From positions 1 through 64,000 of the forward strand of contig JARGFU010000024.1 in NCBI GenBank assembly GCA_029210625.1: DNA of 64,000 bases. Direction: 5' to 3'. Shown piece by piece: positions 5,963-32,129 of the stretch. This stretch comes from Deltaproteobacteria bacterium. Lineage in GTDB: Bacteria > Myxococcota > Myxococcia > SLRQ01. Every line of letters begins with the position of its first letter. Position 1 is the stretch's first letter. The notes below the pieces were generated by a model. That model was not told the DNA's origin. It was given only the letters and a program-made list of their open reading frames with translations, and made no database searches. Position numbers and translations under genes: made by a program.

Positions 5963-5964
5963 GG

Positions 5965-17055: not shown

Positions 17056-17808
17056 TTAGCCAAGGACGGTCACAAGGCGGTCGTTGTGGTCGTAGAAGTA
17101 GAGGTCGGGGTGCTTCGATACGCGCTTGCCCTTCTTCTTGCCCTTCTGGGAGGCCTTGGCGGGGGCGCTGCTGGCGTTCCAGCTCCACCCCTTGTTCCCC
17201 TTGGCCGGGGCGAAGGTCGCCTCCCAGGGCTCCTCGGGGATCTCGAGGGTGCTCTTCCAGCCCTTGAGCTTCGCGAGCTCGGCGAAGCTGGTGCGAAAGC
17301 CGGCCTGGGAGCGGTTGTCGACCAGCTCCCACTGCTCCATCTTCTCGGAGACGCGGAGCAGGGCGTCCTTGAGGTTCGTCAACGGCAGCTTCCAGGCCTT
17401 GTAGGCGCGGGCGATGACCCCCAGGTAGTCCTCGGCGGGGTCGTGCTCGCGGCACCCGGGGGCCATGACGTAGACGAGGGCCTGGATCCGGAGCCCCTGG
17501 TGGTTCACGGTCAGCCACTTCTTCCGGTAGACGTCAGAGGCGACGCCCTCGCAGCGGTCCAGGGTCGCCTCGTGGTCGGGGGTGATCGCCCACAGGATCC
17601 CGGGGACCTCGCACCCCACCTTGCGCTCGACGTCGGCGACGCCGGTCACGCGGGACCAGCGGCGGAAGGTGAGGCGGTGCTCGGCCAGGGTCGCCAAGCC
17701 CAGGGCCACGGCGCCGGGGCAGCGGCGGCGCATCTGCTTGCCGTTGCAGTTGGATCCGTAGGCGAAGTAGTAGACCTCTCGGGCTCGGTTCTTCTTGTTG
17801 CTTGCCAT
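17056..17808 (-). CDS. Gamma-glutamylcyclotransferase-like protein (250 aa)
   Basis: FAYGSN (residues 15-20) is the GGCT/AIG2 substrate-loop signature, and LDRCEGV supplies the expected catalytic Glu. The family releases 5-oxoproline from gamma-glutamyl amines or peptides. Residues after about 190 are a Lys/Ala-rich extension. Start MASNKKNRA has GGAGACTGGAG upstream; the leader has the CGGCAT hairpin. One terminator and one promoter separate it from a second cyclotransferase and an amidoligase, which fits synthesis and removal of a gamma-glutamyl-type linkage. Confidence 0.75.
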   Translation of the reverse strand: MASNKKNRAREVYYFAYGSNCNGKQMRRRCPGAVALGLATLAEHRLTFRRWSRVTGVADVERKVGCEVPGILWAITPDHEATLDRCEGVASDVYRKKWLTVNHQGLRIQALVYVMAPGCREHDPAEDYLGVIARAYKAWKLPLTNLKDALLRVSEKMEQWELVDNRSQAGFRTSFAELAKLKGWKSTLEIPEEPWEATFAPAKGNKGWSWNASSAPAKASQKGKKKGKRVSKHPDLYFYDHNDRLVTVLG

Positions 17809-17824
17809 CTCTCCAGTCTCCTTT

Positions 17825-17840
17825 CGCCCATGCCGGGGCG
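17825..17840 (-). promoter_or_regulatory. 5' leader hairpin, CGGCAT loop
   Basis: Minus-strand RNA CGCCC-CGGCAT-GGGCG, a 5-bp stem, 17 nt before the ATG at 17808. One of five such leader hairpins whose stems covary while CGGCA stays constant. Confidence 0.65.
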
Positions 17841-17862
17841 CGTTGTTTCTTTCTACGTCCAC

Positions 17863-17891
17863 ACAATACCACCCAATGGGGGGTACTACAA
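17863..17891 (-). promoter_or_regulatory. Promoter with spacer operator
   Basis: TTGTAG (17886-17891) and TATTGT (17863-17868), exactly 17 bp apart, with CCCCCCATTGGGTGG filling the spacer. It drives the cyclotransferase-like gene. Confidence 0.8.
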
Positions 17892-17913
17892 GGAAAAAAG
17901 TGACAAGGCGACC

Positions 17914-17951
17914 AAAAAAACGAGGCCCCTCTCGGGGGCGAGAAGGGCCTC
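17914..17951 (-). terminator. Rho-independent terminator
   Basis: GAGGCCC...GGGCCTC stem on the minus strand (17945-17951 with 17922-17928) followed by seven T. It closes the amidoligase operon. Confidence 0.8.
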
Positions 17952-17972
17952 TGTTGCCGGTTCTTCGGCCCC

Positions 17973-18389
17973 CTATGCGAAGGCCTGCCGGGGCTCGAAG
18001 AGGCGCTGCCGGGGCGCCTGCGGCCTCTGGTGGTCACTGTAGTCCCCTGATGGGACCGGAACGCCTCGGGGGGTGGGGCAGAAGTAGAGCCAAGCGGTGA
18101 CGCTCTCGCCGTTGTCGAGCGTGACCGTGATCTCCTGGCGGCGATACCAGCGGGGATGTTCCTCCAGGCTGTCGAGGCGTTCCAGCGTCTCGGGATCCAC
18201 GGCGTAGACCTCCCCCCGGATCGGGGTAACAGGTTCGTCCTTGACGACGTAGGGGATCCGTTCGGCGTACATGGCATAGAGCTCGTCGGTCATGGCCGGC
18301 CCCAGCTCTCGGACCCCCGGGCCGGTGAGGAAGCAGTGGTTGTGGAAGCCCTTGCGGAGCGAGCCATAGACGAAGATCTTGCGGTTCAT
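17973..18389 (-). CDS. Second gamma-glutamylcyclotransferase-like protein (138 aa)
   Basis: FVYGSLRKG (residues 6-14) is the GGCT/AIG2/GGACT signature, and LERLDSLEEHP holds the conserved acidic residue. The length is that of a bare family domain, about half its neighbour at 17056, and the two share little beyond the fold motifs, so recent duplication is unlikely. Last gene of the operon begun by the amidoligase. Expected to act in the cytosol on a gamma-glutamyl or related amide. Confidence 0.8.
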   Translation of the reverse strand: MNRKIFVYGSLRKGFHNHCFLTGPGVRELGPAMTDELYAMYAERIPYVVKDEPVTPIRGEVYAVDPETLERLDSLEEHPRWYRRQEITVTLDNGESVTAWLYFCPTPRGVPVPSGDYSDHQRPQAPRQRLFEPRQAFA

Positions 18390-18391
18390 GG

Positions 18392-18661
18392 TTAGCCCTC
18401 CTCGGTCGGGGTCGTTCCGGGGACCTTGCCCTGGGACGGGATGATCGCGATGAACCCCCAGTAGGCCAGCGAGTGAAGGAAGGCCTCCGGGGAAGCAGTC
18501 GAGACGATGACCTCCTTGTAGCGCAAGGCGCGGCGGGCGACTTCCTTCATCCAGTCGTCCCGGTCGTCCTCGGCCAGGAAAGCGTCTCGGTGCAGGAGGG
18601 CGAGGACCTCCTCGGGGGTGCCGGCTTCGTAGGTGCGTCCCTGCGGGGTCGTGATGGTCAT
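18392..18661 (-). CDS. Hypothetical protein (89 aa)
   Basis: Start MTITTPQGRTYE with AAGGAGGAACCGACC upstream. A beta-strand N-terminus is followed by helices and WGFIAIIPSQGK. It sits between the amidoligase and the cyclotransferase, two bases from the latter, so it may supply or carry their substrate; no motif shows this. Confidence 0.65.
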   Translation of the reverse strand: MTITTPQGRTYEAGTPEEVLALLHRDAFLAEDDRDDWMKEVARRALRYKEVIVSTASPEAFLHSLAYWGFIAIIPSQGKVPGTTPTEEG

Positions 18662-18682
18662 GGTCGGTTCCTCCTTGGCTGC

Positions 18683-18706
18683 GGGGTGGGGAGGAGCCCC
18701 CACCCC
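18683..18706 (-). repeat. Intercistronic GC hairpin
   Basis: GGGGTGGGG pairs perfectly with CCCCACCCC around a short loop, between the amidoligase stop and the next start. No U-tract follows, so it is more likely an mRNA-stabilising or attenuating element than a full terminator. Confidence 0.5.
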
Positions 18707-18720
18707 CTGGCTCGGTTCGG

Positions 18721-19716
18721 TTAGGCGGCTTCGGCGAAGGTCGAGGCGCGCAGGGTGAAGTAGGCGACGTCGGCGGCGGCGAGGGAGGCGAGGCGCATGA
18801 GACCGGCCAGGGTCGCTGTGCGCTCAGGAGCCGCGGGCGCTCCTTCGGCGTTGCCGGTGGTCAGGTGGTAGCGCACGGTGCCGTTCTCGCGGGTCGTCTT
18901 GAGGTCCAGGCCCATCGCCCACACGGCCTTATAGATCTGGAAGCTCGGGTTCTTGGCGCCGGTCATTTCCTTCGCCTCGGCCAGGGTCAGCCCTTCAGAG
19001 ACGAGCTTCTGGATGACCGGGCGATACTTGCCGCGGGTCGTGACGGTGACGTTGTGGACGTCGGCGGCGGCGGGGGCCTTGCTCTTCTCGACCAGGGCGA
19101 GGCACAGGCGCAGCCAGGGGAGGACCTTCGCGGCTTCGACGGTTCCGGAGTGCTGGCGGAACTCCACGGTGCCGTGGACGGTGTAGCTCTGGAGGTTGAG
19201 CTTGTGGTAGCGGTCGTTGTTGAGACAGTAGCAAAGCTCGTTCATGGTCGTCGCGGCCATGATTGCGCGGTAGGTCGTCGCGCTGCGGAGGCTCTTGCAG
19301 AAGCGGTTGTTTTGGGCGCGGCGGCTGGTGGGCATGAAGGAGTCGGTGACGGGCTCGTAGTGCCGGTAGTCGGCGACCAGCTTCTTCCAGTTCTCCAGGG
19401 TCAGGTCGCGGGCGTCAGCGTGAACGTGGAGCCCAGTGGTACGGTTGACGCGGCACCCAATGGCGGTCAGACATTCGAGGACCTTTTGGAGCTGCTCGAT
19501 GCCGGCGTCGCCACTCAGGACCGGGGAGACGACTTCCATCTCGGTTCCGGTGCCGTGGACGCTGCAATCGGTCACGATCTTCCACCAGGTGCGCGTCGCG
19601 TGGTTGTAACCCTCTTCGCGGCAGTTGACGCCGGTCTCGCGGATCTTCTCGGCTACCTGAGCGCGGCTCATCGTAGGGTGGAAGGTCTCGATCTCGATCC
19701 CAAAAGAGCGTGCCAT
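18721..19716 (-). CDS. Putative amidoligase, COOH-NH2 ligase superfamily (331 aa)
   Basis: FGIEIE (5-10), EMEVVSP (59-65), TGLHVHAD (94-101) and VEFRQHSGT (184-192) are the hallmark motifs of the Amidoligase_2 family. These glutamine-synthetase-like enzymes are thought to join an amine to a carboxylate using ATP. The family is known to co-occur with cyclotransferase-like genes, as here. The start MARSFGIEI has GGGAGACTCACA and a CGGCAA-type leader hairpin upstream. The C-terminal 80 residues are helical and Ala-rich, beyond the catalytic core. Substrate unknown. Confidence 0.85.
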   Translation of the reverse strand: MARSFGIEIETFHPTMSRAQVAEKIRETGVNCREEGYNHATRTWWKIVTDCSVHGTGTEMEVVSPVLSGDAGIEQLQKVLECLTAIGCRVNRTTGLHVHADARDLTLENWKKLVADYRHYEPVTDSFMPTSRRAQNNRFCKSLRSATTYRAIMAATTMNELCYCLNNDRYHKLNLQSYTVHGTVEFRQHSGTVEAAKVLPWLRLCLALVEKSKAPAAADVHNVTVTTRGKYRPVIQKLVSEGLTLAEAKEMTGAKNPSFQIYKAVWAMGLDLKTTRENGTVRYHLTTGNAEGAPAAPERTATLAGLMRLASLAAADVAYFTLRASTFAEAA

Positions 19717-19738
19717 TGTGAGTCTCCCTGAAGGTTCG

Positions 19739-19755
19739 CGCCCTTGCCGTGGCGC
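19739..19755 (-). promoter_or_regulatory. 5' leader hairpin, ACGGCAA loop
   Basis: Minus-strand RNA with GCGCC pairing GGCGC around ACGGCAAG, 23 nt before the amidoligase ATG. Member of the five-copy leader family. Confidence 0.6.
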
Positions 19756-19779
19756 TGGTTGCCTTGCTTTGTTGTCTAC

Positions 19780-19809
19780 ATAGTACCCACTCATTGGGGT
19801 GGGACGCAA
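19780..19809 (-). promoter_or_regulatory. Promoter with spacer operator
   Basis: TTGCGT (19804-19809) and TACTAT (19780-19785), 18-bp spacer containing CACCCCAATGAGTGGG. It drives the amidoligase operon. Confidence 0.8.
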
Positions 19810-19830
19810 GGGGAAAAAGCGACAAATCGA

Positions 19831-19870
19831 CAAAAAAACACGGCGCCCTCACTTTTTTTTGAGGGGCCGT
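19831..19870 (-). terminator. Rho-independent terminator
   Basis: ACGGC-CCTC (minus strand) pairs with GAGGGCGCCGT with one bulged base, followed by seven T. It ends the 23294-19967 unit. Confidence 0.75.
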
Positions 19871-19966
19871 CTAAGGTCTTTGCGGGACTCGGTTTTTCGA
19901 GAGGGCCCGAGGCTCGGTTTCGACGACCAAGCCCCGGGGCAGGGGAGGGGGGGGTGGACTTGTCTC

Positions 19967-20350
19967 CTACGCTGGGAGGGCGACCGCCCGACTCTGCCTG
20001 CGGCGGCGGCGGTCGTTGCGGATCCTGCGGACCTGTTGGAGGCAGTGCCGGCGGCATTCGGTGTCCTCGTCCCGCAACCGCTCGAGGGTGGCGTAGATGT
20101 CGTCCATGAGCCACTCGAAGAGCCCGGTGAACCAGGGACCCTCGTCGGGGAAGTCGGACCAAGCGTTCGCCATCTCGAACACGTCGTTGCAGACCGAACA
20201 GAGGCGGTAGCGCTGCCATCTCCCGTCCCAGAGCCCGGAGTGCTCGTGGTAGCGATGCCCGATCTCGATGGTCCCGTCACACTCGGCGCAGGTATGGGCG
20301 ACCCTGGCCCGGGGGTTGGCGTGCTGGTAGACGGCGGGGAGGTCGGTCAT
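19967..20350 (-). CDS. Zinc-binding protein (127 aa)
   Basis: HTCAECDGTIEIGHRYHEHSG...RYRLCSVC (residues 19-55) is a treble-clef or zinc-ribbon-like four-Cys site seen in small phage proteins. The C-terminal 35 residues are strongly basic (RRIRNDRRRRRQSR), suggesting nucleic-acid contact. Last gene before the terminator at 19831-19870; weak ribosome-binding site (GGGATAGCCC). Confidence 0.7.
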   Translation of the reverse strand: MTDLPAVYQHANPRARVAHTCAECDGTIEIGHRYHEHSGLWDGRWQRYRLCSVCNDVFEMANAWSDFPDEGPWFTGLFEWLMDDIYATLERLRDEDTECRRHCLQQVRRIRNDRRRRRQSRAVALPA

Positions 20351-20353
20351 GGG

Positions 20354-20535
20354 CTATCCCTCGGGGAGCTCGTCGAGCTGCTTGTCGGTGAGGTCGATAC
20401 GCTTGAACAGGACCCCGAAGGTCTCCCCGGGGTCGTGGTCGTCTCCTCGTACTCGGGACCCCCGGCGGTCACTCGGTAGCGCACAGGGGTCCCGACTTTG
20501 TATTAGGCGTTGAACTCGGCGGCGGTGATTCTCAT
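20354..20535 (-). pseudogene. Decayed small phage gene (nonsense and frameshift)
   Basis: The ATG overlaps the upstream stop (ATGA) and opens MRITAAEFNA, then meets TAA (20503-20505). The same frame continues YKVGTPVRYRVTAGGPEYEET, a pattern I associate with a common small phage protein. The frame that reaches the next stop, ending GVLFKRIDLTDKQLDELPEG, is reached only by a one-base shift near the GACCCCGGGGAG stretch. One nonsense change and one indel explain it. Confidence 0.6.
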
Positions 20536-21026
20536 CGCCTCCCCCCGGTGAGGTCCATGAGCTCGTGGAGCTTGGCCTTGATCTTCCCGACCTGGCCGGC
20601 CAGCTCGTCGTCGACGATCCTCCGGACGGTGCGCTTGACCTGGTTGAGGATTTCGACCTCCAGGGTCGCTTGGATCTTGTCCCGTAGATCCTGGGTCTGG
20701 GTCGCGACGGCCTCGCGGACCTGGGCGCGCACGGTTTCATCGGCGGCCCGGTTCGCCTCCTCCCGCACGACGATCTTGCCCAGGTCGGTCAGGGCGAGCT
20801 TGGTCCCCCGGCTCGACCATTCCGGCTTCGCGTACAACTGGACCTCTTGTGCCACGGTGGCCGCGAACACTCGGGAGAGGGTCTCGTCGTGGCCGGCTTT
20901 CACCAGGATCCCCCGGGCAAGCCCCTTCACAACGGATCGCTCCAGCTCTGCGCGGGCCACGGTTCCCACGGGGAACAAGGCGTCGAGAGCCTCCTCGGTT
21001 AAACGGATCTTGACGTCGGTCTTCAT
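20532..21026 (-). CDS. Hypothetical helical protein (164 aa)
   Basis: Predominantly alpha-helical with a long central coiled-coil-like part (REEANRAADETVRAQVREA and onward) and MDLTGGRR at the C-terminus. No membrane segment, no catalytic motif. AGGAGGCGACC precedes the ATG. It may be a structural or DNA-associated factor; unknown. Confidence 0.7.
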   Translation of the reverse strand: MKTDVKIRLTEEALDALFPVGTVARAELERSVVKGLARGILVKAGHDETLSRVFAATVAQEVQLYAKPEWSSRGTKLALTDLGKIVVREEANRAADETVRAQVREAVATQTQDLRDKIQATLEVEILNQVKRTVRRIVDDELAGQVGKIKAKLHELMDLTGGRR

Positions 21027-21037
21027 GGTCGCCTCCT

Positions 21038-21060
21038 GCCGGGGGCACTCGGCCCCCGGC
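21038..21060 (-). repeat. Intercistronic GC hairpin
   Basis: GCCGGGGGC pairs perfectly with GCCCCCGGC around five bases, between the DUF932 gene and the next start. No U-tract; probably attenuation or 3'-end protection. Confidence 0.5.
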
Positions 21061-21077
21061 GTCGTTTGGTGAACGGT

Positions 21078-22208
21078 CTAGTTGGGGATCAGCTTCGTTG
21101 CGGCCTGTTCCACGGCGATGCGGCTGTCCGTGTGGGGGATCGAGCGGGCGGCGGCGGTGATGCCTTGCACCATATCCCAGGCGGTGTCGACTTTGCCCTC
21201 CTCGGTCTGCGCCTGCTTCCAGCCGTCCTCGATGATCCCCTTGGCGATCCCCGTGCGCTCGCGGACCCAGCGCAGAATATCCTCGTAGGAGCCCTCTCCG
21301 GGGGCGGCGGTCTTGAGGCGAAGGTTCTGCGCCCTCTCGATCGCCTGGACCTCCTGCTCAACGGAGCGCTCGGCGTAGTCCTCCAGGGCGGGCGCGGCCT
21401 CGCGCAGGAAGCGCGCAGGCGCCCCGGCGTTGTGCCGGATCGAGAGCTGCTCAACGTGGCGGGCGCCCCAGATGATCCGGTTGTCGCAGACCTTCTCGTA
21501 GAGCATGAGCATGAGCTTGAAGGAGGCGCTCCCGGTCTCGGAGTTCGAGACGATGAAGCCCCGGTAGCTCGGGGCCTGCTGGCCTGGGATCTGGATCGGG
21601 TTCGCGGGGTCGCACAGGAAGCAGAAAACGTCCCGGTCGCTCGCGTAGAGGGTCGTCGCTCGCTTGGGGTTGTGGCTGGTGTAGCTGGAGGCGGGGACGA
21701 CCCAGCGCCCCCCCTGCTCCTGGTTGAGCCTCATGACGGCGTCGACCACATCGAGGTCGAAGATGCGCCCATAGCTCGGGGAGGTCACTGCGCGCAGGGT
21801 GCCCGCTCCCTCTCCCTGGTCCTCGTAGTAGAAGGCGCTCTCGCCCTTGTCGGAGTCGACGCGCAAGCCGTGGGTGAGGAGCGCCGTGGTCAGCTCCGGG
21901 GGGAGCCGGCGCAGGTAGGCGGCGGGGGCCTTGGCGACCTGGGCGGTCTGTCCGAAGCTCCAGTGGGTGAAGTCCAGGCGCTCGAACTTGCGGTGCTTGA
22001 GGACGACGTCGCGGCCCACGATGTCGGGGTAGAGCTCCTTCGGCTGGATCTCAACCGTCCGGACGTTCTCGGTGCGGAGGGCGACCGCGGCCCGGAGCCC
22101 CTCGAGGGTGACGAAGCGCTCGTCGTCCGGGCGGCTCGCCCACTGGCGCGAGAGGTGATAGAGGTTGGTCGGGGCGGCGGCGCCTGCGTTGGTCTGTAGC
22201 TGGTTCAT
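21078..22208 (-). CDS. DUF932-like phage/plasmid protein (376 aa)
   Basis: The central block YRGFIVSNSETGSASFKL, then LYEKVCDNRIIWG, is the signature of DUF932/phage-plasmid-like proteins, often encoded near plasmid replication or conjugation regions. Function unknown. Predicted cytosolic with a mixed alpha/beta core and a helical C-terminal third (AERSVEQEVQAIERAQ). Start MNQLQTNAG has GGAGGAGAG upstream. Confidence 0.75.
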   Translation of the reverse strand: MNQLQTNAGAAAPTNLYHLSRQWASRPDDERFVTLEGLRAAVALRTENVRTVEIQPKELYPDIVGRDVVLKHRKFERLDFTHWSFGQTAQVAKAPAAYLRRLPPELTTALLTHGLRVDSDKGESAFYYEDQGEGAGTLRAVTSPSYGRIFDLDVVDAVMRLNQEQGGRWVVPASSYTSHNPKRATTLYASDRDVFCFLCDPANPIQIPGQQAPSYRGFIVSNSETGSASFKLMLMLYEKVCDNRIIWGARHVEQLSIRHNAGAPARFLREAAPALEDYAERSVEQEVQAIERAQNLRLKTAAPGEGSYEDILRWVRERTGIAKGIIEDGWKQAQTEEGKVDTAWDMVQGITAAARSIPHTDSRIAVEQAATKLIPN

Positions 22209-22218
22209 CTCTCTCCTC

Positions 22219-22512
22219 CTACTGGCTGACGGCGTAACGGGGCAGGAAGCATCCGGTCAGCTTGCCCGTCTCGCGGTCGAGGTGGTTGTGGATCCCGGTG
22301 ACGTCGTGGAGCAGGTCGTAGTCGCTGGCGGCGGCGAGCTCCTCCAGGCGAAGCGGGCATCCGTTGAGGTGGGCCAAGGTCAGGGTCCGGCACGTTGCAG
22401 CGGGCACCAGCCGGACCCCCAGGACCTCGCAGGCTTTCACGGCCCGCTCGGCGATCTTGGTGATGAGGTCGATCTCGTGGTTCGGGGCGAGGGTCTTCAA
22501 CTCTGTCTTCAT
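22219..22512 (-). CDS. Hypothetical protein (97 aa)
   Basis: Start MKTELKTLAPNHEIDL with AAGGAGAAGCCGCG upstream. A helical N-terminus carries ITKIAERAVKACEVLG, then VPAATCRTLTLAHLNGCPLRLEEL and a His-rich TGIHNHLDRETG. It resembles small phage proteins of unknown role. Confidence 0.65.
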   Translation of the reverse strand: MKTELKTLAPNHEIDLITKIAERAVKACEVLGVRLVPAATCRTLTLAHLNGCPLRLEELAAASDYDLLHDVTGIHNHLDRETGKLTGCFLPRYAVSQ

Positions 22513-22533
22513 CGCGGCTTCTCCTTCGGGGTG

Positions 22534-22557
22534 GCGGGGGGCGCCCATGCCCCCCGC
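22534..22557 (-). repeat. Intercistronic GC hairpin
   Basis: GCGGGGGGC pairs with GCCCCCCGC around GCCCAT, between two genes of the 23294-19967 operon, without a U-tract. Third member of the same kind of element. Confidence 0.5.
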
Positions 22558-22566
22558 GCTGGGGTT

Positions 22567-23016
22567 CTAGTGAACGATGATCGTGCCCCACGGGGGGACG
22601 AGGTGGGTCTGCGCGCTCTCGACGATCCGGGGACCCAGGGAGCGCCCCTTGCCCTCGGTCTTGATCTCGGCGAAGTACATGACGCCGGAACCGTCCGGGG
22701 TCACTTCCACCAGGGAGAGGGCCTCCTGGCGCCCCTCCATATTCTTCACGCGCCCCTCGGGGATCGTCTCGCCTGGCGCGAGCTTCTTGATCCAGCTCTC
22801 GGAGATGACGACGACCAGGTCGGCCCCGGTGCGGCGGGCGAGCGCGCTGGCCTGGCGGCAGGACTGCATCTTCAACGCCTCGGAGCTGAAGTTGACCTGG
22901 CCGTGCGCGATGATGTGGTTGTCCTTGACGATGAAGATAAACGGGAGGGCCTCGGCCTCTGCGGTCACGATGTCGGCGGCGGTTCTCCAGAGGGTCTCGG
23001 TAATATGTTTGCTCAT
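22567..23016 (-). CDS. Hypothetical protein (149 aa)
   Basis: MSKHITETLWRTAADI... contains IFIVKDNHIIAHGQV and a later VVVISESWIKKL strand-turn pattern, suggesting an alpha/beta sensor- or nuclease-like fold, but no motif is decisive. ATGA overlap with the upstream gene. Confidence 0.65.
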   Translation of the reverse strand: MSKHITETLWRTAADIVTAEAEALPFIFIVKDNHIIAHGQVNFSSEALKMQSCRQASALARRTGADLVVVISESWIKKLAPGETIPEGRVKNMEGRQEALSLVEVTPDGSGVMYFAEIKTEGKGRSLGPRIVESAQTHLVPPWGTIIVH

Positions 23017-23294
23017 GCGCGCTCGCTCCTCTTGAAGTAGGTGACGTCGATGTCGTCGTAGTGGCGCTTGCCGCCTGCGACGGTGTAGGTGCAGGCGACC
23101 AGGGCGAGGGTGTTGCTGCTGGGGGTGCGGGAGCCGGCCTTCTCGAGGTGGCGTTCGGCGGTCCTGAGCCGGCGGAAGCGCCCCTGGGCGGATCCCCTGG
23201 TGCTGCGGCGGAACTGCTTGCCGTCCCAGAGCTTCACCTCGCGCCCCCGGACCTCGATGAAGTAGTAGTCGACGGTCTTGCCGGTTGGGTCCAT
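23013..23294 (-). CDS. Hypothetical protein (93 aa)
   Basis: First gene after the promoter at 23347-23376; ATG preceded by GGAGACTCCA and the ACGGCAA hairpin. MDPTGKTVDYYFIEVRGREVKLWDGKQF begins a small beta-rich domain, followed by a basic Arg/Ser linker and a second beta segment. No family is recognised. Confidence 0.7.
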   Translation of the reverse strand: MDPTGKTVDYYFIEVRGREVKLWDGKQFRRSTRGSAQGRFRRLRTAERHLEKAGSRTPSSNTLALVACTYTVAGGKRHYDDIDVTYFKRSERA

Positions 23295-23312
23295 TGGAGT
23301 CTCCTTCGTCGG

Positions 23313-23328
23313 CGGGCTTGCCGTGCCC
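23313..23328 (-). promoter_or_regulatory. 5' leader hairpin, ACGGCAA loop
   Basis: Minus-strand RNA GGGC-ACGGCAA-GCCC, 19 nt before the ATG at 23294. The stem is the reverse pairing of the GCCC/GGGC copies, so the structure covaries. Confidence 0.6.
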
Positions 23329-23346
23329 TTTGTCGTCTTGTCTCCC

Positions 23347-23376
23347 TATATACCCCTCAACGGGGGGGTCGTGCAA
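23347..23376 (-). promoter_or_regulatory. Promoter with spacer operator
   Basis: TTGCAC (23371-23376) and TATATA (23347-23352), 18-bp spacer holding CCCCCCGTTGAGGGG. It drives the six-gene unit to 19967. Confidence 0.8.
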
Positions 23377-23396
23377 GGGCAAAAATGGGGCAAAGC

Positions 23397-23429
23397 AAAA
23401 AAAGAGGTCGCCCCAGCGACGAGGCGACC
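23397..23429 (-). terminator. Rho-independent terminator
   Basis: GGTCGCC/GGCGACC 7-bp stem (23423-23429 with 23406-23412) followed on the minus strand by CTCTTTTTTT. It ends the 24163-23488 unit. Confidence 0.8.
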
Positions 23430-23487
23430 CAAAAGGGTGGAACGTGGTTGGTCCTGCGAGGGCGTAGAGCGCGGGGTTGCGGAGCCT

Positions 23488-23952
23488 TTAGAAGAGCGAC
23501 GGGTAGCCGTAGCGAGCGACGGCGAACTGGAAGTTCCGGCAGGTCGTGAACTCCGCGGCGAGACCCTTCCAGCCCTCGGGCAGGGCGGGGATCTCGAGGA
23601 GCTCGGCGTGCTTGACGCGGAACTCGTAGCCGTTCCACGTTCGGAGGACGGCGACGCTGCCCGGTTTCAAGCGAAGCGGCATATGGAAGTTCTGCGACCA
23701 CTGGAGTCGTTGGTGGACCCCGCAGATGTAGAGATAGTCCCAGGCGGCGGTCGGGACCTCGTCGAGGTCGATGACGGTCGCGAGCGGCAGCGTCTCGATC
23801 TTGATCTTCGGGGAGACGGGACCCACCAGCCCCTTCTGACAGTGCTTCCGGGGGTTGGCCCCCCGGACGTACTTCATCCAGAATTGCCGGAAGCCTTCGA
23901 GCTTCTTGGTCTCCTTGCACGGGGGCTTGATGTAGAGCTGCGGTGTCGTCAT
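23488..23952 (-). CDS. Hypothetical protein (154 aa)
   Basis: Start MTTPQLYIKPPC was preferred over an earlier Met because of the GGGGGCCGACC leader. Basic, aromatic-rich, probably a single beta-rich domain; two Cys pairs (CQKG, CGVH) are unpaired by known motifs. Second gene of a two-gene unit. No family is recognised. Confidence 0.65.
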   Translation of the reverse strand: MTTPQLYIKPPCKETKKLEGFRQFWMKYVRGANPRKHCQKGLVGPVSPKIKIETLPLATVIDLDEVPTAAWDYLYICGVHQRLQWSQNFHMPLRLKPGSVAVLRTWNGYEFRVKHAELLEIPALPEGWKGLAAEFTTCRNFQFAVARYGYPSLF

Positions 23953-23962
23953 GGTCGGCCCC

Positions 23963-24163
23963 CTAGAAACCAAGGATCTCGACGGCAGCCTTGACGGTCA
24001 GTGGAGTCGTCAAGGAGAGGTCGAGGCCCTTGTCCCAGCGGGTGATCGTGTCGTCGCCCCAGATCTTCACGCGAACGCTACGGCGGCGGCTTGTGATGAC
24101 GCCCTCGGCGTCTGCATACTCGCGAAGCTGCTTGCGTGTGCGGATCTTGGTCTTGCTTTTCAT
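23963..24163 (-). CDS. Small basic protein (66 aa)
   Basis: First gene after the promoter at 24213-24241; AAGGAGACTCGAAG before ATG. MKSKTKIRTRKQLREYADAEG...RRRSVRVKIWGDD looks like a compact DNA-binding or KOW-like basic domain, but no family is assignable. Confidence 0.65.
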   Translation of the reverse strand: MKSKTKIRTRKQLREYADAEGVITSRRRSVRVKIWGDDTITRWDKGLDLSLTTPLTVKAAVEILGF

Positions 24164-24180
24164 CTTCGAGTCTCCTTGTG

Positions 24181-24194
24181 CCCCATGCCGGGGG
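24181..24194 (-). promoter_or_regulatory. 5' leader hairpin, CGGCAT loop
   Basis: Minus-strand RNA CCCC-CGGCAT-GGGG, 18 nt before the ATG at 24163, followed by AAGGAGACT. Confidence 0.6.
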
Positions 24195-24212
24195 TCTTGT
24201 TGACGTGGCGAC

Positions 24213-24241
24213 AAAGTACCCCCCGTTGGGTGGTTCCGCAA
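24213..24241 (-). promoter_or_regulatory. Promoter with spacer operator
   Basis: TTGCGG (24236-24241) and TACTTT (24213-24218), 17 bp apart, spacer AACCACCCAACGGGGGG. It starts the two-gene unit to 23488 and lies immediately after the ParB-methyltransferase gene with no terminator between them. Confidence 0.8.
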
Positions 24242-24259
24242 GGGGAAAATGATCTCTTT

Positions 24260-25663
24260 TTACTTTTTCGCTTCTTTTTCCCGTGCCGCCCGATACGCGG
24301 CTTCGACCTCATCCGCGAGGCCGACCCTGCGGCACCCGGGCCACGGCAGGTCGAACTCCCGGCGCAGGGCGGCGATCGCCTGGTCCTCGGGGATCTCCCC
24401 GGTCTTGATCGCTGACGCCTGCCAGGTGGTCGAGTGCTTGTGCCCCGTCAGTTTCATCTTGTAGGCGTCGAGCATGGCCGGGACTTCGTCCTTGGCGTGG
24501 AACCGCTGGTAGACCCAGTTCCCCAGGAAGAAGATCGCAGTGAAGCCGTCGTCGTCGAGGAACTGGATGTAGCGGCGCTCGGCGTCCCCATCGACCGTCG
24601 CTTCCAGCGCCCGGGCGGTGTACTCCTTGCAGCGTCCCGAGAGGTAGATGCGCGCCCCTGGCTTGGCGAGGGCGTTGATGGTGGTGAGCACGTCGGCCTC
24701 GGCCTGCGGGGAGTCGACCGCGCAGATGACGACGTCGAGGACGACCACGTCGTAGCGCCCCCGCTCCGCGATGTCCTTGAACATGGCCCGGCACATTCGA
24801 TGGACCTGTCCGGTGTCGATGGTCGCCCCGCCTTTGGCCCGGCGGAAGAACTCGACCCCGTGGATCCGGTAGCCCTCCCGGTTGAGCTTCGCCTGGTAGT
24901 CCCCCTGGCCGCAGCCGAAGTCGAGCACGCGCTCGTCCTTGCGGAGCTCCGGAAGGATGTGCTTCTCATAGAGGGGACTGCGGTTGCTCATCCGGCCCGT
25001 CTTCTCGTTCTCGCGGAGCCGGAAGACCTGGACGTTGGTCTGGGCGTAGGTGAGTTTCGGAAGGTGGGCGTAGGAGAACTTCCCGTAGGCGCGCCCGAAG
25101 CGCTCGAGGACCTCGGCCTCCTTGTCGTCTGGAATGTAGTTGACCCGGCAGGGCTTCCCGATGACCTTGCAGGCGAGGGCGTAGTTCGCCCCCGAGAGGA
25201 CCTTGCCGGACTGTGTCGCGACCGCGGCGCCCCAGAGCCCGTGGGCGAGGATCAGCTTGATCGACTCCTTGCGGATCCCGGCCCCGGGGGACCGCAGGTT
25301 GCCGGCGATCTCCTTCGCGGGCACGTCGACCCAGCCGAGGACCCCGGCGGGCGGAACGGAGCACGCCTCATCGCCCGTGTCGGCGTCGGTGCCGTTGTGG
25401 AGCTGGTTGAAGCGCACCTCGTCGACGTCGCTCAACCCCTCGAGCAGGACGACCGGCGCGTGGGTGTAGCCGAGCGCCCGGAGGCTCTTGGTGCGCTGGT
25501 GACCCGCGACGATCGTGCCGTCCTCCTTGCGGACGAGGATCGGCTTGAGCACTCCCAGCGAGGAGAGCGACTCCCGCAGCGCGGCCAGGTCGTCGTCCCC
25601 GATGATCCGGGGGTTGTAGATCGCCCCCTTGATCTCGGCAATCGGATATTCGGGGTAGAACAT
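24260..25663 (-). CDS. ParB-like nuclease domain fused to SAM methyltransferase (467 aa)
   Basis: Residues 8-85 are a ParB/Srx-like domain (GAIYNPRIIGDDDLAALRES, with AGHQR 53-57). Residues 230-400 are a class I methyltransferase with VLDFGCGQG (246-254) and VVVLDVVICAVDSP as the motif IV region. There is no DPPY or PC motif, so the methyl acceptor is unclear. ParB-methyltransferase fusions are typical of phage DNA-modification or anti-restriction modules. A second ParB-like gene lies directly upstream. RBS GGAGAGGACCCC. Confidence 0.8.
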   Translation of the reverse strand: MFYPEYPIAEIKGAIYNPRIIGDDDLAALRESLSSLGVLKPILVRKEDGTIVAGHQRTKSLRALGYTHAPVVLLEGLSDVDEVRFNQLHNGTDADTGDEACSVPPAGVLGWVDVPAKEIAGNLRSPGAGIRKESIKLILAHGLWGAAVATQSGKVLSGANYALACKVIGKPCRVNYIPDDKEAEVLERFGRAYGKFSYAHLPKLTYAQTNVQVFRLRENEKTGRMSNRSPLYEKHILPELRKDERVLDFGCGQGDYQAKLNREGYRIHGVEFFRRAKGGATIDTGQVHRMCRAMFKDIAERGRYDVVVLDVVICAVDSPQAEADVLTTINALAKPGARIYLSGRCKEYTARALEATVDGDAERRYIQFLDDDGFTAIFFLGNWVYQRFHAKDEVPAMLDAYKMKLTGHKHSTTWQASAIKTGEIPEDQAIAALRREFDLPWPGCRRVGLADEVEAAYRAAREKEAKK

Positions 25664-25691
25664 GGGGTCCTCTCCTCCCCGGGGCCGCTTC

Positions 25692-26339
25692 TCAGTTCCC
25701 CAGGAGCCCCAGAACGAAGCCGAACTGGACCCCGGCGGTCTCGACGTGGGCCTTCAGCGCGGCCTCCAGTAGCGCGAGCTCCTCCTCGGTGAGCGGGATC
25801 GCCCGCAGCTTCTTGTTGACCTCCCACTTGAGCAGGCACTCCCCATGAGCGCCGACACTGGCGCCGTCTGTTTCGAGCGGGATCTCCGCGCTGCCCGATC
25901 CGGTGCGGTGCAGGCCGGCCTTCTCGGCGGTGTCCTCGAGGAGCTGCATGACGGCGGCGTCGCCCGTCTCGATGTCCTCGAGGAGAGCGTGCAGGTTTGC
26001 GGCATCCGAGCCGGCCAGGGCGGCGATCGGATCCAGGGTCGCGAGGATCTTCTTCTCCTCGGCCTCGGAGAGGTCGACGTAGACGACCGGAACCGCGGAG
26101 ATGTGCTCCCGCAGGGCGAGCATGACGCGCAGATGCCCGTCGACCAGGTGACCGGTGCGCTTGTTGACGACGACCTGCTGGACCCAGCCGACCTCGGAGA
26201 GGAGCCCCTTGAGGGCGTCTTGCTGGAACTCGGGATGGATGCGCCAGTTGAGGGGGTTCGCGAGGATCTGTTCGGGATCTTCCTCCCCGCTGCCAACGAT
26301 CCGGTTGGGAAAGGCTGGCTTGCTCTTGCTCTTGCTCAT
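25692..26339 (-). CDS. ParB-like nuclease domain protein (215 aa)
   Basis: Residues 25-105 show the ParB/Srx core: NPLNWRIHP (28-36), GLLSEVGWVQQVVVNK, and VDGHLRVML (66-74) as the phosphate-binding loop. No helix-turn-helix follows, unlike partition ParB, so it is more like the phage nuclease/ATPase type found beside modification enzymes. Start overlaps the DUF4406 stop (ATGA). Confidence 0.8.
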   Translation of the reverse strand: MSKSKSKPAFPNRIVGSGEEDPEQILANPLNWRIHPEFQQDALKGLLSEVGWVQQVVVNKRTGHLVDGHLRVMLALREHISAVPVVYVDLSEAEEKKILATLDPIAALAGSDAANLHALLEDIETGDAAVMQLLEDTAEKAGLHRTGSGSAEIPLETDGASVGAHGECLLKWEVNKKLRAIPLTEEELALLEAALKAHVETAGVQFGFVLGLLGN

Positions 26340-26743
26340 GCGGCCTCCGCGCACTGGTGAAAGTCGGCCAGGCACGCGAGGAGTACATGGTCGCGGCGAT
26401 CTTCGACGTAGACCTCCAGGCCCAGGAACTGGGCCAGCGCGAGCTCGGCGAGAGCCCCGGCGCTCTTCTGCCACCCCTTGAGGAGGTAGATCGCGTCGCC
26501 TTTGGTCTTGTCGAAGGTCTGGATCGCCGCAAGATCCCGGGAGATGCAGCGGATCTGGAGCTCGCGGTCGACGACCAGGTCCTCGGGAGGGTAGGCCCCC
26601 CAGCCCTCGTAGGCCCGGTCCAGGTCAGCGGGGGAGACGACGATCCAGCCCTGGGCTCGGAGCCGATCGCGGGCGGCGTCGAAGGCGTCGAAGTTGAAGT
26701 TCGCGTAGCCCCGCATTGGACCGGCGATGTAGACCCTTCTCAT
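26336..26743 (-). CDS. DUF4406, nucleoside 2-deoxyribosyltransferase-like (135 aa)
   Basis: YIAGPMRGYANFNFDAFDAA and then GWIVVSPADLDRAYEG are diagnostic of DUF4406/NDT-like folds, as is the later CISRDLAAIQ...YLLKGWQKSAGALAELALA. These enzymes handle nucleoside-ribosyl bonds and may act in nucleotide hypermodification or NAD metabolism. Length is typical. Confidence 0.85.
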   Translation of the reverse strand: MRRVYIAGPMRGYANFNFDAFDAARDRLRAQGWIVVSPADLDRAYEGWGAYPPEDLVVDRELQIRCISRDLAAIQTFDKTKGDAIYLLKGWQKSAGALAELALAQFLGLEVYVEDRRDHVLLACLADFHQCAEAA

Positions 26744-26913
26744 CGGGTGAGGTTCCCCCAGGCCTGTTTGACGATCTTCTGGAGTTCCTTGGGGTCCTTG
26801 ACGTCCACCCCGGAGCGGCGGGCGGCGGTGAGGAGCTTGCGGTACTCGGCGCCCACGGCGCGGCGCGTTTGGCGGTTGGGGCGTTGCTGGATGACCGAAG
26901 GGGAGGTTGCCAT
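26740..26913 (-). CDS. Small basic protein (57 aa)
   Basis: Start MATSPSVIQQRPNRQ has AAGGAGTCAAA; a GCCAGCAAAG repeat lies 15 bp further upstream. Arg/Lys-rich helices (RQTRRAVGAEYRKLL) suggest nucleic-acid contact. ATGA overlap with the DUF4406 gene. Confidence 0.6.
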   Translation of the reverse strand: MATSPSVIQQRPNRQTRRAVGAEYRKLLTAARRSGVDVKDPKELQKIVKQAWGNLTR

Positions 26914-26948
26914 TTTGACTCCTTGCCGCTTTGCTGGCATATGGGGCC

Positions 26949-26975
26949 GAAGAAAGCCGGGGGGGAATCCCCGGC
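26949..26975 (-). terminator. Rho-independent terminator
   Basis: GCCGGGG/CCCCGGC stem (26969-26975 with 26956-26962) followed on the minus strand by TTTCTT. It ends the ribbon-helix-helix gene. Confidence 0.7.
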
Positions 26976-26992
26976 CCCTTCGAGTGTGGACG

Positions 26993-27193
26993 CTACCCTC
27001 TGCGACGGCCTCGAGCATACTCCTCGAGGACGTTCGTGACCATATCACTCATCGGGCGGTCGTCGAACGCGGCGAGACTCTTGAGCTCGCGGTGGAGCCC
27101 CGCCGGAATGTAGAACGTCACCTTGCGCGTCTCGCGCAGCGTGGCCGTCCGGGTCGTTACCTCCGTGTCGGTCTGCCTGTTCGTCTGTGCCAT
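26993..27193 (-). CDS. Ribbon-helix-helix DNA-binding protein (66 aa)
   Basis: After a flexible Thr/Gln/Arg tail, RKVTFYIPAGLHRELKSLA (strand, helix 1) and PMSDMVTNVLEEYARG (helix 2) form a CopG/Arc-type RHH domain. It stands alone between a near-consensus promoter (TTGACA-17-TATAGA) and its own terminator. An operator-like CCCATTGGGG lies in its leader. This is the layout of an autoregulated master regulator. A second RHH protein is at 29999. Confidence 0.8.
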   Translation of the reverse strand: MAQTNRQTDTEVTTRTATLRETRKVTFYIPAGLHRELKSLAAFDDRPMSDMVTNVLEEYARGRRRG

Positions 27194-27230
27194 ATCTCCT
27201 CCCCGATTCTCCCCCCCCCGGTGGTTCCCC

Positions 27231-27242
27231 CCCAATGGGTAT
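27231..27242 (-). promoter_or_regulatory. Operator-like site in the RHH leader
   Basis: ATACCCATTGGG on the minus strand matches the core of the spacer operators but lies downstream of the promoter, about 40 bp before the ATG. A roadblock or autoregulatory site is inferred. Confidence 0.5.
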
Positions 27243-27277
27243 CTACGACTTACAGCATACCACTAAACCGTCAAACG

Positions 27278-27306
27278 TCTATAGAAGTTTTCAACTTTGC
27301 TGTCAA
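27278..27306 (-). promoter_or_regulatory. Near-consensus promoter for the RHH gene
   Basis: TTGACA (27301-27306) and TATAGA (27278-27283), exactly 17 bp. This is the closest match to a consensus sigma-70 promoter in the window, embedded in unusually A/T-rich sequence with a second TTGACA-like word at 27311-27316. Confidence 0.8.
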
Positions 27307-27313
27307 TTTACTG

Positions 27314-27856
27314 TCAAAATCGGCGCGGGTGGAGCGTGATCTCCACCCCGGGGCGCTCCTTGTCGACCGCAAAGTCGTCCGAAAACCCTACGACATGCTC
27401 CCAGCCGTCGTTGGCGAGGATGCCGGCGTAGCGCAGCCCGTCGATGATGAGCTTCTTCGCGCCGGCCACGTTGTCCTTATCGCGTCTGCGGTTGCGCTCG
27501 ATCCAGCGGAAGTGAACGTGGACGGGGTAGTCGACCGCCCGGGTCCCCGCGGTCCAAAGCGCCACGGCGACGGCCTCGGACCAGTGCTTCTTCATCTCGT
27601 TGTAGGGGTCGACGAAGATCCTCTCGCCGCCCCGTCTGCGCCAGCCGGCCTTTCGGGCGGCGGCGAGCAGCTCGTTCTCCCCGGGGCAGGGACCATCGAG
27701 GAAGAACGTCTGGGCGACCGCCGCCCGCTCTGCCGGCGGGGCCTCCAGGCGCTCCAGCCGCTTTGCTGGCCTGCTTGCTGGCTTGCCGTGGTGCTTTGCT
27801 GGCACGGCATAGCGCCCCTTGAGCTGGATCGAGCGACCCCGGATCCGCCCCCTCAC
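27314..27856 (-). CDS. RusA-like Holliday junction resolvase (180 aa)
   Basis: DKDN (126-131), LIIDGLRYAGILANDGW (136-152) and a late acidic VDKERPGVEI match the RusA fold (phage-type, about 120-150 aa). The acidic residues coordinate Mg at the junction. GTG start overlaps the helicase-loader stop (GTGA). An extra basic N-terminal 45 residues is encoded by DNA rich in the GCCAGCAAA/TTGCTGGC repeat, suggesting the repeat was accommodated in coding sequence. Confidence 0.8.
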   Translation of the reverse strand: MRGRIRGRSIQLKGRYAVPAKHHGKPASRPAKRLERLEAPPAERAAVAQTFFLDGPCPGENELLAAARKAGWRRRGGERIFVDPYNEMKKHWSEAVAVALWTAGTRAVDYPVHVHFRWIERNRRRDKDNVAGAKKLIIDGLRYAGILANDGWEHVVGFSDDFAVDKERPGVEITLHPRRF

Positions 27857-28641
27857 GGTTGCTTGCCCAGGCGCTTCTCGACGCGGTAGTCCGGCCCCCC
27901 CAGGGCGATCCACTCGTTCATCTCGGTCAGGCGCGACGCGGCCCGGGCCGTGATGCGCTCGGAAAGCTCGTCGGGCATGAGGTTCGAGGTGACGATGGTC
28001 GGGAGCAGGTCCTCGTAGCGGCGGTTGATGATCCGGGGGATGAGCTCTTGGACCCACTCGGTCGCCCGTTCCGCACCGATGTCGTCGAGCACCAAGACCG
28101 GGACCTGCATGACCTCCTCGGCCAGGTCCTCGACGGTCCCCTTCGAGATCCCGGCGCGGAAGTCGGCGATCAAGTCGGGGACGTAGGCGAAGAGCACCTT
28201 GACCCCCTGGCGGTGTAGCGCGTTGACCATCGCCGCGGCGAGATGCGTCTTGCCTCGGCCCACGTCGCCCACCAGAGAGATCCCCTCGCCCCCCTCCTGG
28301 GGGTAGGCCGTGACCCAGCGCCTACAGGCCTCCAGGGCGCCACGGTTGGCCGGCGTCGCCCGGAAGCTGTCGAAGGTGCGGGTCCGGAAGCGCTTGCTGA
28401 TCTTCGTCGAGGCGAGCTTCTCGGCCATCTTCTCGGCGGCTCTCCAGGCCTGCCACGGCTTGCAGCGAGCGCGGACCTGGCGCTGGTCCTGCTTGATCGA
28501 GATCCAGCCCCCATCGGGGCACTGGCTGGGGTCCTCGCAGGAGCAGTTCTCCCCTCGGGGCTCCTCGCCCGGATCCGGAACCAGCGTGAGTCGGGCGAGG
28601 TTCGCCAGCGCGTCTTTCGTCTCGAAACCAATGCCGTTCAT
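27853..28641 (-). CDS. DnaC/IstB-type helicase loader (262 aa)
   Basis: AAA+ ATPase with Walker A GDVGRGKT (125-132), Walker B VLVLDDIG (182-189) and a TSNL sensor. The N-terminal domain holds CSCEDPSQCPDGGW and a further Cys, a zinc site typical of phage DnaC proteins. It is expected to load the host replicative helicase at the phage origin with the product of the overlapping upstream gene (ATGA). Confidence 0.85.
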   Translation of the reverse strand: MNGIGFETKDALANLARLTLVPDPGEEPRGENCSCEDPSQCPDGGWISIKQDQRQVRARCKPWQAWRAAEKMAEKLASTKISKRFRTRTFDSFRATPANRGALEACRRWVTAYPQEGGEGISLVGDVGRGKTHLAAAMVNALHRQGVKVLFAYVPDLIADFRAGISKGTVEDLAEEVMQVPVLVLDDIGAERATEWVQELIPRIINRRYEDLLPTIVTSNLMPDELSERITARAASRLTEMNEWIALGGPDYRVEKRLGKQP

Positions 28642-29636
28642 TGCTCCCCTCCCTCTGCGGAGCTGCGAACCAGGGCGTTCAGGCCGGCGCCTCGTGGGGC
28701 TCCCGGGCTCCTGGGCGCGCTCGGCCTCTGACCTCCCCCTCCTCCCCCTGCGGGGCGGTTGTCGTACTTGCCCTCGACGATCCGCGTCAGGTTGCGCTCG
28801 GAGAGGATCCAGTCGAAGTCGACCATCCACCCCCGCTCGTTGTCGCCGCGCAGGAACCGGGAAGCGTTGACGCGCTCGATGACCGCCTCCCACCAGGCGG
28901 GCTCGGGATGGATCGAGAGCCTGGTGCGCAGCTTCTTCCGGCGGTCGTCGGTAAGGGCCTTGATGCGCGGCAGGGGAGCGACGGCCTTCTCGTTCCAGAG
29001 CAGCGCGAGCTCCCGGGCCGTGAACGCAGCCGGCGGGCGAGCGGGCGTGAGCGCGACCTCCTCCTCCTCAGAGTCTTTCTGTTCTTGGTCTTGGTCTTGG
29101 TCTATTGTAGGCAAGCCCTCCGGAAGCCCTTCGGAAGGGCTTGCCAAGCCCTCCGGAAGCCCTTCGGAAGGGCTTGCCAAGCCCTCCACAAGCCCTTCAT
29201 ATTCCTCCCCGGCGAGCCCGGTTATGGACAGGGCCTCGATCAAATAAGCGTTGCCGGACGCGAGGATAGCAGAAATCGCCTCTTTTCGCAGCGGCGACTC
29301 TTTGGGGATCGTGTCGATGACGGCGACTGCCGCTTTGCCAGCATTGGGCGACTGGGGGGGGTTGTGCTTGATGTAGTTCGGAAGGAAGATCCAGCCGAGC
29401 TCGTCGGTCACGACGAAGCCGATCTCCTCGAGGGTCTCGAGGGCCTGCTTCGCGTCGTCGTAGGAGAGCCGAAGGTCTTCGGACAGGTAGCCCACCGGGG
29501 CGCGATAGCATCCCAGGGCGTTCGAGTGGGGGGAGGTGAGCAGGTAGGCCCCCATGAGGCGGGCCGGCAGGCTCAGTCGGTGAACGTCTGGATCGGTCCA
29601 GTACCGCGTCCGGATGACGCCATACTCTCTACTCAT
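28638..29636 (-). CDS. Replisome organizer / replication initiation protein (332 aa)
   Basis: The N-terminal 110 residues (MSREYGVIRTRYWTDPDV...LMGAYLLTSP...GFVVTDELGWIFLPNYIKHN) resemble winged-helix replication initiators that precede DnaC genes in temperate phages. A linker of 11-residue repeats (GLASPSEGLPE) is encoded by 33-bp DNA repeats, probably the origin. The C-terminal third (FDWILSERNLTRIVEGKY) is a typical helicase-loader-contacting tail. Start overlaps the stop of a 14-codon leader peptide. Confidence 0.8.
   Translation of the reverse strand: MSREYGVIRTRYWTDPDVHRLSLPARLMGAYLLTSPHSNALGCYRAPVGYLSEDLRLSYDDAKQALETLEEIGFVVTDELGWIFLPNYIKHNPPQSPNAGKAAVAVIDTIPKESPLRKEAISAILASGNAYLIEALSITGLAGEEYEGLVEGLASPSEGLPEGLASPSEGLPEGLPTIDQDQDQEQKDSEEEEVALTPARPPAAFTARELALLWNEKAVAPLPRIKALTDDRRKKLRTRLSIHPEPAWWEAVIERVNASRFLRGDNERGWMVDFDWILSERNLTRIVEGKYDNRPAGGGGGGQRPSAPRSPGAPRGAGLNALVRSSAEGGEQ
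29113..29198. repeat. Iteron array, probable origin of replication
   Basis: Two perfect 33-bp direct repeats (29113-29145, 29146-29178) and a partial third (29179-29198). Each repeat contains the palindrome AAGCCCTTCGGAAGGGCTT. They lie in the middle of the initiator gene, as in lambda O-type origins. Confidence 0.65.
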
Positions 29637-29673
29637 GGGGGTCCCACACCTGGGACCGGTGGTTGTTCTCCAT
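29629..29673 (-). CDS. Leader peptide upstream of the replisome organizer (14 aa)
   Basis: ATG after GGGAGACTCGCG opens MENNHRSQVWDPHE and stops at TAG overlapping the initiator ATG (CCCCATGAGTAG). The good ribosome-binding site belongs to this peptide; the initiator itself has none, so translation of the initiator probably depends on reading the leader. Confidence 0.6.
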   Translation of the reverse strand: MENNHRSQVWDPHE

Positions 29674-29698
29674 CGCGAGTCTCCCTGAAAGGTCTGTA

Positions 29699-29714
29699 GG
29701 CCCATGCCGGGGCC
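29699..29714 (-). promoter_or_regulatory. 5' leader hairpin, CGGCAT loop
   Basis: Minus-strand RNA GGCCC-CGGCAT-GGGCC, 26 nt before the leader-peptide ATG, followed by GGGAGACT. Confidence 0.6.
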
Positions 29715-29727
29715 TGGTACGACGCAG

Positions 29728-29756
29728 AGAGTAAATCAAGCCGTTTTGCTGGTCAA
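29728..29756 (-). promoter_or_regulatory. Promoter of the replication operon
   Basis: TTGACC (29751-29756) and TACTCT (29728-29733), 17 bp apart; a CCAGCAAAA repeat overlaps the spacer. It drives leader peptide, initiator, helicase loader and RusA genes. Confidence 0.75.
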
Positions 29757-29770
29757 GAGACAAAAAGACA

Positions 29771-29793
29771 AGACTACCACTCATTGGGAGGGC
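29771..29793 (-). promoter_or_regulatory. Operator-like site upstream of the replication promoter
   Basis: CCCTCCCAATGAGTGG matches the spacer operators and is followed by TAGTCT, but no -35 hexamer stands in front. It lies between the leftward replication promoter and the rightward small-RNA promoter. Confidence 0.55.
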
Positions 29794-29831
29794 GGCTCGC
29801 GTAACCCCTTTTCGGGAAAGCGTTTTTTCCC

Positions 29832-29860
29832 TTGCCGGATCGTCGAGGAGATGATACCTT
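29832..29860 (+). promoter_or_regulatory. Plus-strand promoter of a candidate small RNA
   Basis: TTGCCG (29832-29837) and TACCTT (29855-29860), 17-bp spacer, start predicted near 29867. Confidence 0.6.
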
Positions 29861-29865
29861 GGGAA

Positions 29866-29995: not shown

Positions 29996-29998
29996 TGT

Positions 29999-32091: not shown

Positions 32092-32129
32092 TATGCGGAA
32101 GTGGAGACAAAAAAATTTCATTTTTCCCC

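Follow-up and report, generated by a model that had tools for sequence, protein, structure and literature searches.

The DNA window analyzed here, bases 1-64000 of the 77,331-bp contig JARGFU010000024.1 from the 6.1-Mb draft genome of a deltaproteobacterium, belongs to a phage-like element and carries five leaders (h1 to h5) in which a hairpin with CGGCA in its loop precedes the sequence GGAGACT and a start codon. Judging from the sequence, hairpin and GGAGACT together are likely the target of a trans-acting antisense small RNA (sRNA) encoded by the same element, which would repress its early operons by a loop-loop (kissing) contact combined with occlusion of the Shine-Dalgarno (SD) sequence. 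The preliminary description of these hairpins had proposed a translational control or RNA-binding-protein site; the sRNA-like locus, a sixth leader at 32225 and the operator-promoters common to the leaders were absent from that account.

The hairpins, the complementarities, the predicted fold, the promoter- and terminator-like sequences and the specificity among gene starts are all evident in the sequence. The five hairpins were all confirmed on the minus strand, with coordinates that differ by no more than 1 nt from those first given, and GGAGACT and then ATG follow in 5/5 (Table 1). Their stems are perfect Watson-Crick helices of 4-6 bp. The loop had been called invariant and CGGCA is indeed found in all five, but the loop as a whole is not uniform and appears in two registers, either CGGCAU closed directly by the stem (h1, h4, h5) or CGGCA with flanking bases (A-CGGCA-A in h3, A-CGGCA-AG in h2). 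Similarly, the differing stems fit selection for pairing, but the covariation attributed to them is only suggestive and does not amount to a formal test, because these are five paralogous leaders in one genome, with two loop registers and nearly all pairs G-C. A single leader duplicated in recent times would not give this pattern, in which the five agree in promoter, loop and SD extension and differ in stems and spacers.

A perfect stem of at least 4 bp surrounds CGGCA at 20 of its 267 sites in the window, 5/5 in the leaders versus 15/262 elsewhere, and the chance of finding all five leader stems would be 0.057^5 = 6e-7, a post hoc figure. GGAGACT before a credible start is found at six places on the 77-kb contig, namely h1-h5 and 32215 (+). 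Across the approximately 98 gene starts of the element, listed with a simple gene caller, the association of hairpin and GGAGACT has a Fisher p of 9e-8. In the whole genome, 5/13 GGAGACTC-ATG arrangements fall on this element, which makes up 1.3% of the genome (p = 4e-7).

The candidate partner of these leaders is encoded divergently from h5. The T-tract/-35/-10 promoter pattern, when scanned over the whole contig, gave six matches, five of them gene promoters and the sixth at 29832 (+), with no credible gene downstream. The putative transcript that would start there has a very stable predicted fold, with a minimum free energy (MFE) of -74.6 kcal/mol (z = -5.7; 0/200 shuffles equally stable). 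The apical loop of its second hairpin (HP2), UCCGAGUCU, has a predicted unpaired probability of at least 0.97 and, with the following CC, is complementary to the leader SD GGAGACUCGGA. The loop of the third hairpin (HP3), AUGCCG, is the exact complement of the leader loop CGGCAU, with an unpaired probability of at least 0.99. The order of the sites is anti-SD then anti-loop in the sRNA and loop then SD in the mRNA (antiparallel-colinear), so that both contacts can form in a single antiparallel complex. The only plus-strand open reading frame (ORF) overlapping the locus, 29887-30207, was rejected as coding: no family matches it, and its GC by codon position, 0.61/0.74/0.52, is non-coding in character next to the 0.64/0.41/0.94 of the portal gene. 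The terminator at the end of the locus could also serve the convergent gene 29999-30217 (-).

In this 66% G+C genome the leaders did not stand out by raw duplex energy when the anti-SD segment was compared with every start codon, and contiguous complementarity was chosen as the measure instead. The contiguous anti-SD match is 7 nt for h1, 9 for h2, 8 for h3, 9 for h4, 10 for h5 and 11 for the sixth leader, p6, and at most 6 nt at all other gene starts; the six longest matches are thus exactly h1-h5 and p6, the last being the longest. The summed SD complementarity amounts to 54, against 34.7 +/- 4.4 in dinucleotide shuffles (reached by 4/2000), and by this sum the sRNA locus ranks first among 10129 contig windows. 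In the 6.1-Mb genome the combination GAGTCTCC...ATGCCG is found only at the sRNA locus and antisense to h4 and h5. Among 25 chance co-occurrences of both sRNA parts in IMG/VR, none had a stem of more than 3 bp closing a loop with ATGCCG.

The p6 leader (32136-32225, +) has the GGAGACTCGG SD and lacks the CGGCA hairpin. Its own hairpin, within 32150-32225 (+), has GGCGCC arms around ACCC-ACAA-GGGT and no CGGCA. Genes for a Sak4-like protein, an exonuclease and SSB lie downstream of the p6 ORF.

A translational-control RNA site is well supported by the sequence. The protein partner of the preliminary description is not the best explanation, since the adjacent sRNA-like gene has an exact complement to the loop and another to the extended SD, and both are predicted to lie exposed in hairpin loops of their own. 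A phage or host RNA-binding protein recognizing CGGCA, with the minus strand of 29900-29940 as an extra site or decoy, would fit an invariant loop on a varying stem just upstream of the SD, and the minus strand at 29911-29940 does look like a leader, with a hairpin and GGGAGACTCGG. We nevertheless consider it unlikely, because it leaves unexplained both the conserved ACT(C) beside the SD core and p6, which has the SD extension and no hairpin; besides, the promoter and terminator are on the plus strand, the minus strand at 29940 has no match to the promoter pattern, and no candidate protein was identified. The hairpins could also be cis elements only, acting as 5' stabilizers of the mRNA or exposing the SD, with the common descent of the leaders accounting for their loop. 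This would agree with their position close to the presumed 5' ends of short-leader transcripts. Yet the leaders have kept exactly the two blocks complementary to the sRNA and have diverged in spacers and stems, and stabilizers do not need a fixed loop sequence, which makes such a role quite improbable.

The minus strand of the sRNA locus reads as a leader-like copy without a start codon. Its leader-like order and spacing suggest that the locus arose as an inverted leader copy, and one could go further and see in it an untranscribed relic of that duplication, with a complementarity that is a by-product of shared ancestry. We find this very hard to reconcile with a locus that has promoter-like and terminator sequences of its own and a very stable four-hairpin fold displaying both complements in loops, with stems unlike those of the leaders and no extended match to any of them.

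The promoters of h1-h4 have a T-rich upstream tract, a TTGnnn -35 box and a spacer holding a palindrome close to TACCACCCAATGGGTGGTA; in the h5 promoter the operator palindrome is upstream of the -35. Two further leaders with the operator, at 962 and 75531, lack both the CGGCA hairpin and the ACT that extends the SD. Early promoters closely followed by a short G+C stem with an invariant five-base loop also recall an N/boxB-like antitermination (nut) system. We give this almost no credence, as no boxA-like element is seen between promoter and hairpin in the leaders (inspected by eye only), the hairpins abut the SD, and the SD extension would be unexplained. Nearly the same promoter-operator, CTTGACATACCACCCATTGAGTGGTATAAT, appears in several unrelated, A+T-richer IMG/VR contigs (L101, L143, L171, L175, L192), which suggests a widespread phage regulator.

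Table 1. Leaders, operators and the putative sRNA locus, in contig coordinates.
Feature	Position (strand)	Description
h1	17815-17840 (-)	Hairpin CGCCC-CGGCAT-GGGCG, 17825-17840; SD GGAGACT, 17815-17821; gene 17056-17808, AIG2-like gamma-glutamyl cyclotransferase
h2	19721-19756 (-)	Hairpin GCGCC-ACGGCAAG-GGCGC, 19739-19756; SD GGGAGACTC; gene 18721-19716, amidoligase
h3	23298-23328 (-)	Hairpin GGGC-ACGGCAA-GCCC, 23314-23328; SD GGAGACTC; gene 23013-23294, 93 aa, no family
h4	24169-24194 (-)	Hairpin CCCC-CGGCAT-GGGG, 24181-24194; SD GGAGACTCG; gene 23963-24163, 66 aa, no family
h5	29678-29715 (-)	Hairpin AGGCCC-CGGCAT-GGGCCT, 29698-29715; SD GGGAGACTCG; gene 28638-29672, DnaD-like replication initiator
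IstB/DnaC-like loader	27853-28641	Follows the DnaD-like initiator gene behind h5
p6	32129-32377 (+)	Operator-promoter; SD GGAGACTCGGA, 32215-32225, overlapping the A of the start; ORF 32225-32377 (50 aa)
Promoter of putative sRNA	29832-29860 (+)	T-tract; -35 TTGCCG, 29832-29837; 17-nt spacer without operator; -10 TACCTT, 29855-29860, with upstream TG
Putative trans-acting sRNA	29866-29995 (+)	Four hairpins in approximately 130 nt; putative start and end; divergent from h5
Anti-SD segment UCCGAGUCUCC	29901-29911 (+)	HP2 (29891-29919) has UCCGAGUCU as its apical loop; last CC in stem
Kissing loop AUGCCG	29935-29940 (+)	In HP3 (29923-29952); stem of 5 + 6 bp with one U-U mismatch
Intrinsic terminator of putative sRNA	29962-29991 (+)	12-bp stem, tail CTCTTGTC
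Operator palindrome TACCCCCCATTGGGTGGTA	17867-17885 (-)	In the h1 promoter spacer
Similar operator sites	19803, 23369, 24235, 29793, 962, 1700 (-); 32136 (+); contig 75531 (-)	Mostly within promoter spacers

From these features we infer pairing in vivo, repression as its outcome and a role in lysogeny. In the mechanism that we propose, AUGCCG of HP3 would kiss the CGGCA(U) loop of the leader hairpin, and the HP2 loop UCCGAGUCU(CC) would pair with the Shine-Dalgarno GGAGACUC. Once paired, the leaders of six early operons, comprising the replication initiator and helicase loader, recombination and accessory genes, would have a covered SD, and ribosome binding and translation would be blocked, perhaps with RNase III cleavage after pairing. 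In contrast to most of its targets, the sRNA has a promoter spacer that contains no operator. It may thus be produced in the lysogen and form there a second, post-transcriptional lock beneath a protein repressor. As the targets include replication and recombination genes, its natural role would be keeping the lysogen quiet or setting copy number; the alternative is that early genes are switched off during lytic growth. Searches of the host genome (98% complete) for Hfq (PF17209) and ProQ (PF04352) detected neither, with positive controls that worked, which agrees with a structured RNA able to act without a chaperone.

Several observations weigh against this proposal. Transcription of the sRNA is something that we infer, its -10 is weak by consensus, a generic sigma-70 scan did not report its promoter, and the U-tract of the terminator is interrupted. 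On the target side, p6 lacks the CGGCA hairpin, only 5 loop pairs are possible for h2 and h3, and when a 96-nt segment is folded, the MFE structures of h1, h2 and h4 do not contain the local hairpin, although its loop bases are still largely unpaired. The sRNA partner was found after looking, and the p-values are to be taken as guides. Finally, no related system was found in IMG/VR or in the phage, plasmid, class and phylum genomes searched, and hence there is no co-variation of sRNA and targets to support the pairing.

These searches covered several kinds of signal. In IMG/VR, scans at the protein level (amidoligase, DnaD-like initiator, portal protein) gave distant or no matches, and DNA patterns for the hairpin with its SD, the core of the sRNA, the operator-promoter and two exact 18-mers gave matches that were chance or unrelated where examined. 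Scans of genome contigs with the terminase and amidoligase, and of phage, plasmid, class and phylum genomes, produced nothing useful. No recurring leader-hairpin loop stood out in contigs with related terminases or initiators (for contig G030:C183, in its first half). Another genome (L045) has an 80% match to a part of the sRNA, which falls within a gene that reads as PTS enzyme I (by sequence reading, not by family search) and was regarded as chance; a further match, to an exact 18-mer (L195), is within an open coding frame.

Nothing in the window matches an Rfam family at the gathering score. The C4 family is not among the Rfam matches at E up to 5 for 29640-30020, and a sub-threshold match to sar at the sRNA locus scores 17.3 bits against a cut-off of 43; with no family match, the locus is not filed as c4, sar or another known RNA. 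By analogy, and in working principle only, the sRNA would act like c4 of phage P1 or RNAIII and RsaA of Staphylococcus aureus. In c4 of P1/P7, which acts in prophage immunity, short complements to the ribosome-binding region of the target are thought to be in loops, and translation is blocked (PMC12197685). The RNA proposed here is likewise phage-encoded, with such complements exposed in predicted loops (HP2 against the SDs, HP3 against the leader loops). The c4 target is the ant mRNA, whereas here six separately promoted leaders, five with the kissing hairpin, appear to be targeted. Their first genes encode the AIG2-like protein, the amidoligase, the DnaD-like initiator and three small proteins; Pfam and PHROGs searches with five of them, all but the 50-aa p6 ORF, gave no antirepressor match.

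The established bipartite binding of RNAIII to coa (PMC2837412) and of RsaA to mgrA (PMC3961350), each an SD duplex plus a loop-loop contact, is of the kind that the complementarity to SD and loop in five leaders would allow here, as is that of RNAIII with rot. The loop-loop contact is in the coding region for coa and mgrA and would be upstream of the SD here; moreover, those RNAs are chromosomal regulators of a Firmicute, and no homology is claimed. Other phage antisense RNAs that silence phage genes are sar of P22, lambda OOP and aQ (PMC12197685). Like c4, each is described in that review with one phage target, and they are said to act on single genes; the sRNA locus here has no target to which it is antisense throughout. 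VpdS of phage VP882 and PreS of lambda are phage-encoded trans-acting sRNAs described as Hfq-bound, and VpdS also affects phage mRNA levels (PMC12197685); they differ from the present case, in which no Hfq was found in the host and the putative targets are the element's own leaders.

An exact 55-base repeat common to both contig ends, such as an assembled circular replicon shows, indicates that the element is probably circular, of about 77.3 kb. It carries terminase, portal and head genes, a DnaD-like initiator and an IstB/DnaC-like loader for replication, Sak4-like, exonuclease and SSB genes for recombination, and encodes ParA and tyrosine-recombinase domains. The presence of ParA and a tyrosine recombinase together with structural phage genes gives it the look of a phage-plasmid, probably a temperate phage living as a plasmid. 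Two small, related-looking proteins (29999-30217 and 26993-27193, -) have weak PHROG matches to Arc-like repressors and are candidates for the operator-binding repressor or a ParA partner. The AIG2-like gamma-glutamyl cyclotransferase (17056-17808, -) and the amidoligase (18721-19716, -), each the first gene behind its own hairpin leader, are possibly a pair attaching and removing amide-linked groups. A 1399-aa head-morphogenesis-like protein (1982-6181, -) matches the DRAT ADP-ribosyltransferase family in its C-terminal part (E 1e-8), which is a possible virion-borne enzyme.

What is new here is the design of the proposed regulon, with one phage RNA, six leaders, and a kissing loop combined with SD pairing. 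It is conceivable, though we hold this broader picture only tentatively, that the phage-plasmid has an RNA regulon in which a single structured sRNA, acting without Hfq or ProQ, uses two dedicated recognition loops to control six or more early operons with promoters of their own. It would do so by way of a modular leader cassette made of kissing hairpin and extended SD, in a post-transcriptional immunity circuit layered on a protein repressor with scattered operators. The sequence points to such a regulon, with a single RNA, a target cassette that recurs and some six operons, and neither Hfq nor ProQ was detected in the host. If this is true, it would be a natural modular design of loop and SD, directly open to compensatory mutations, and repeated leader hairpins with a complement in a nearby terminator-ended locus could serve as a search strategy for other phages.

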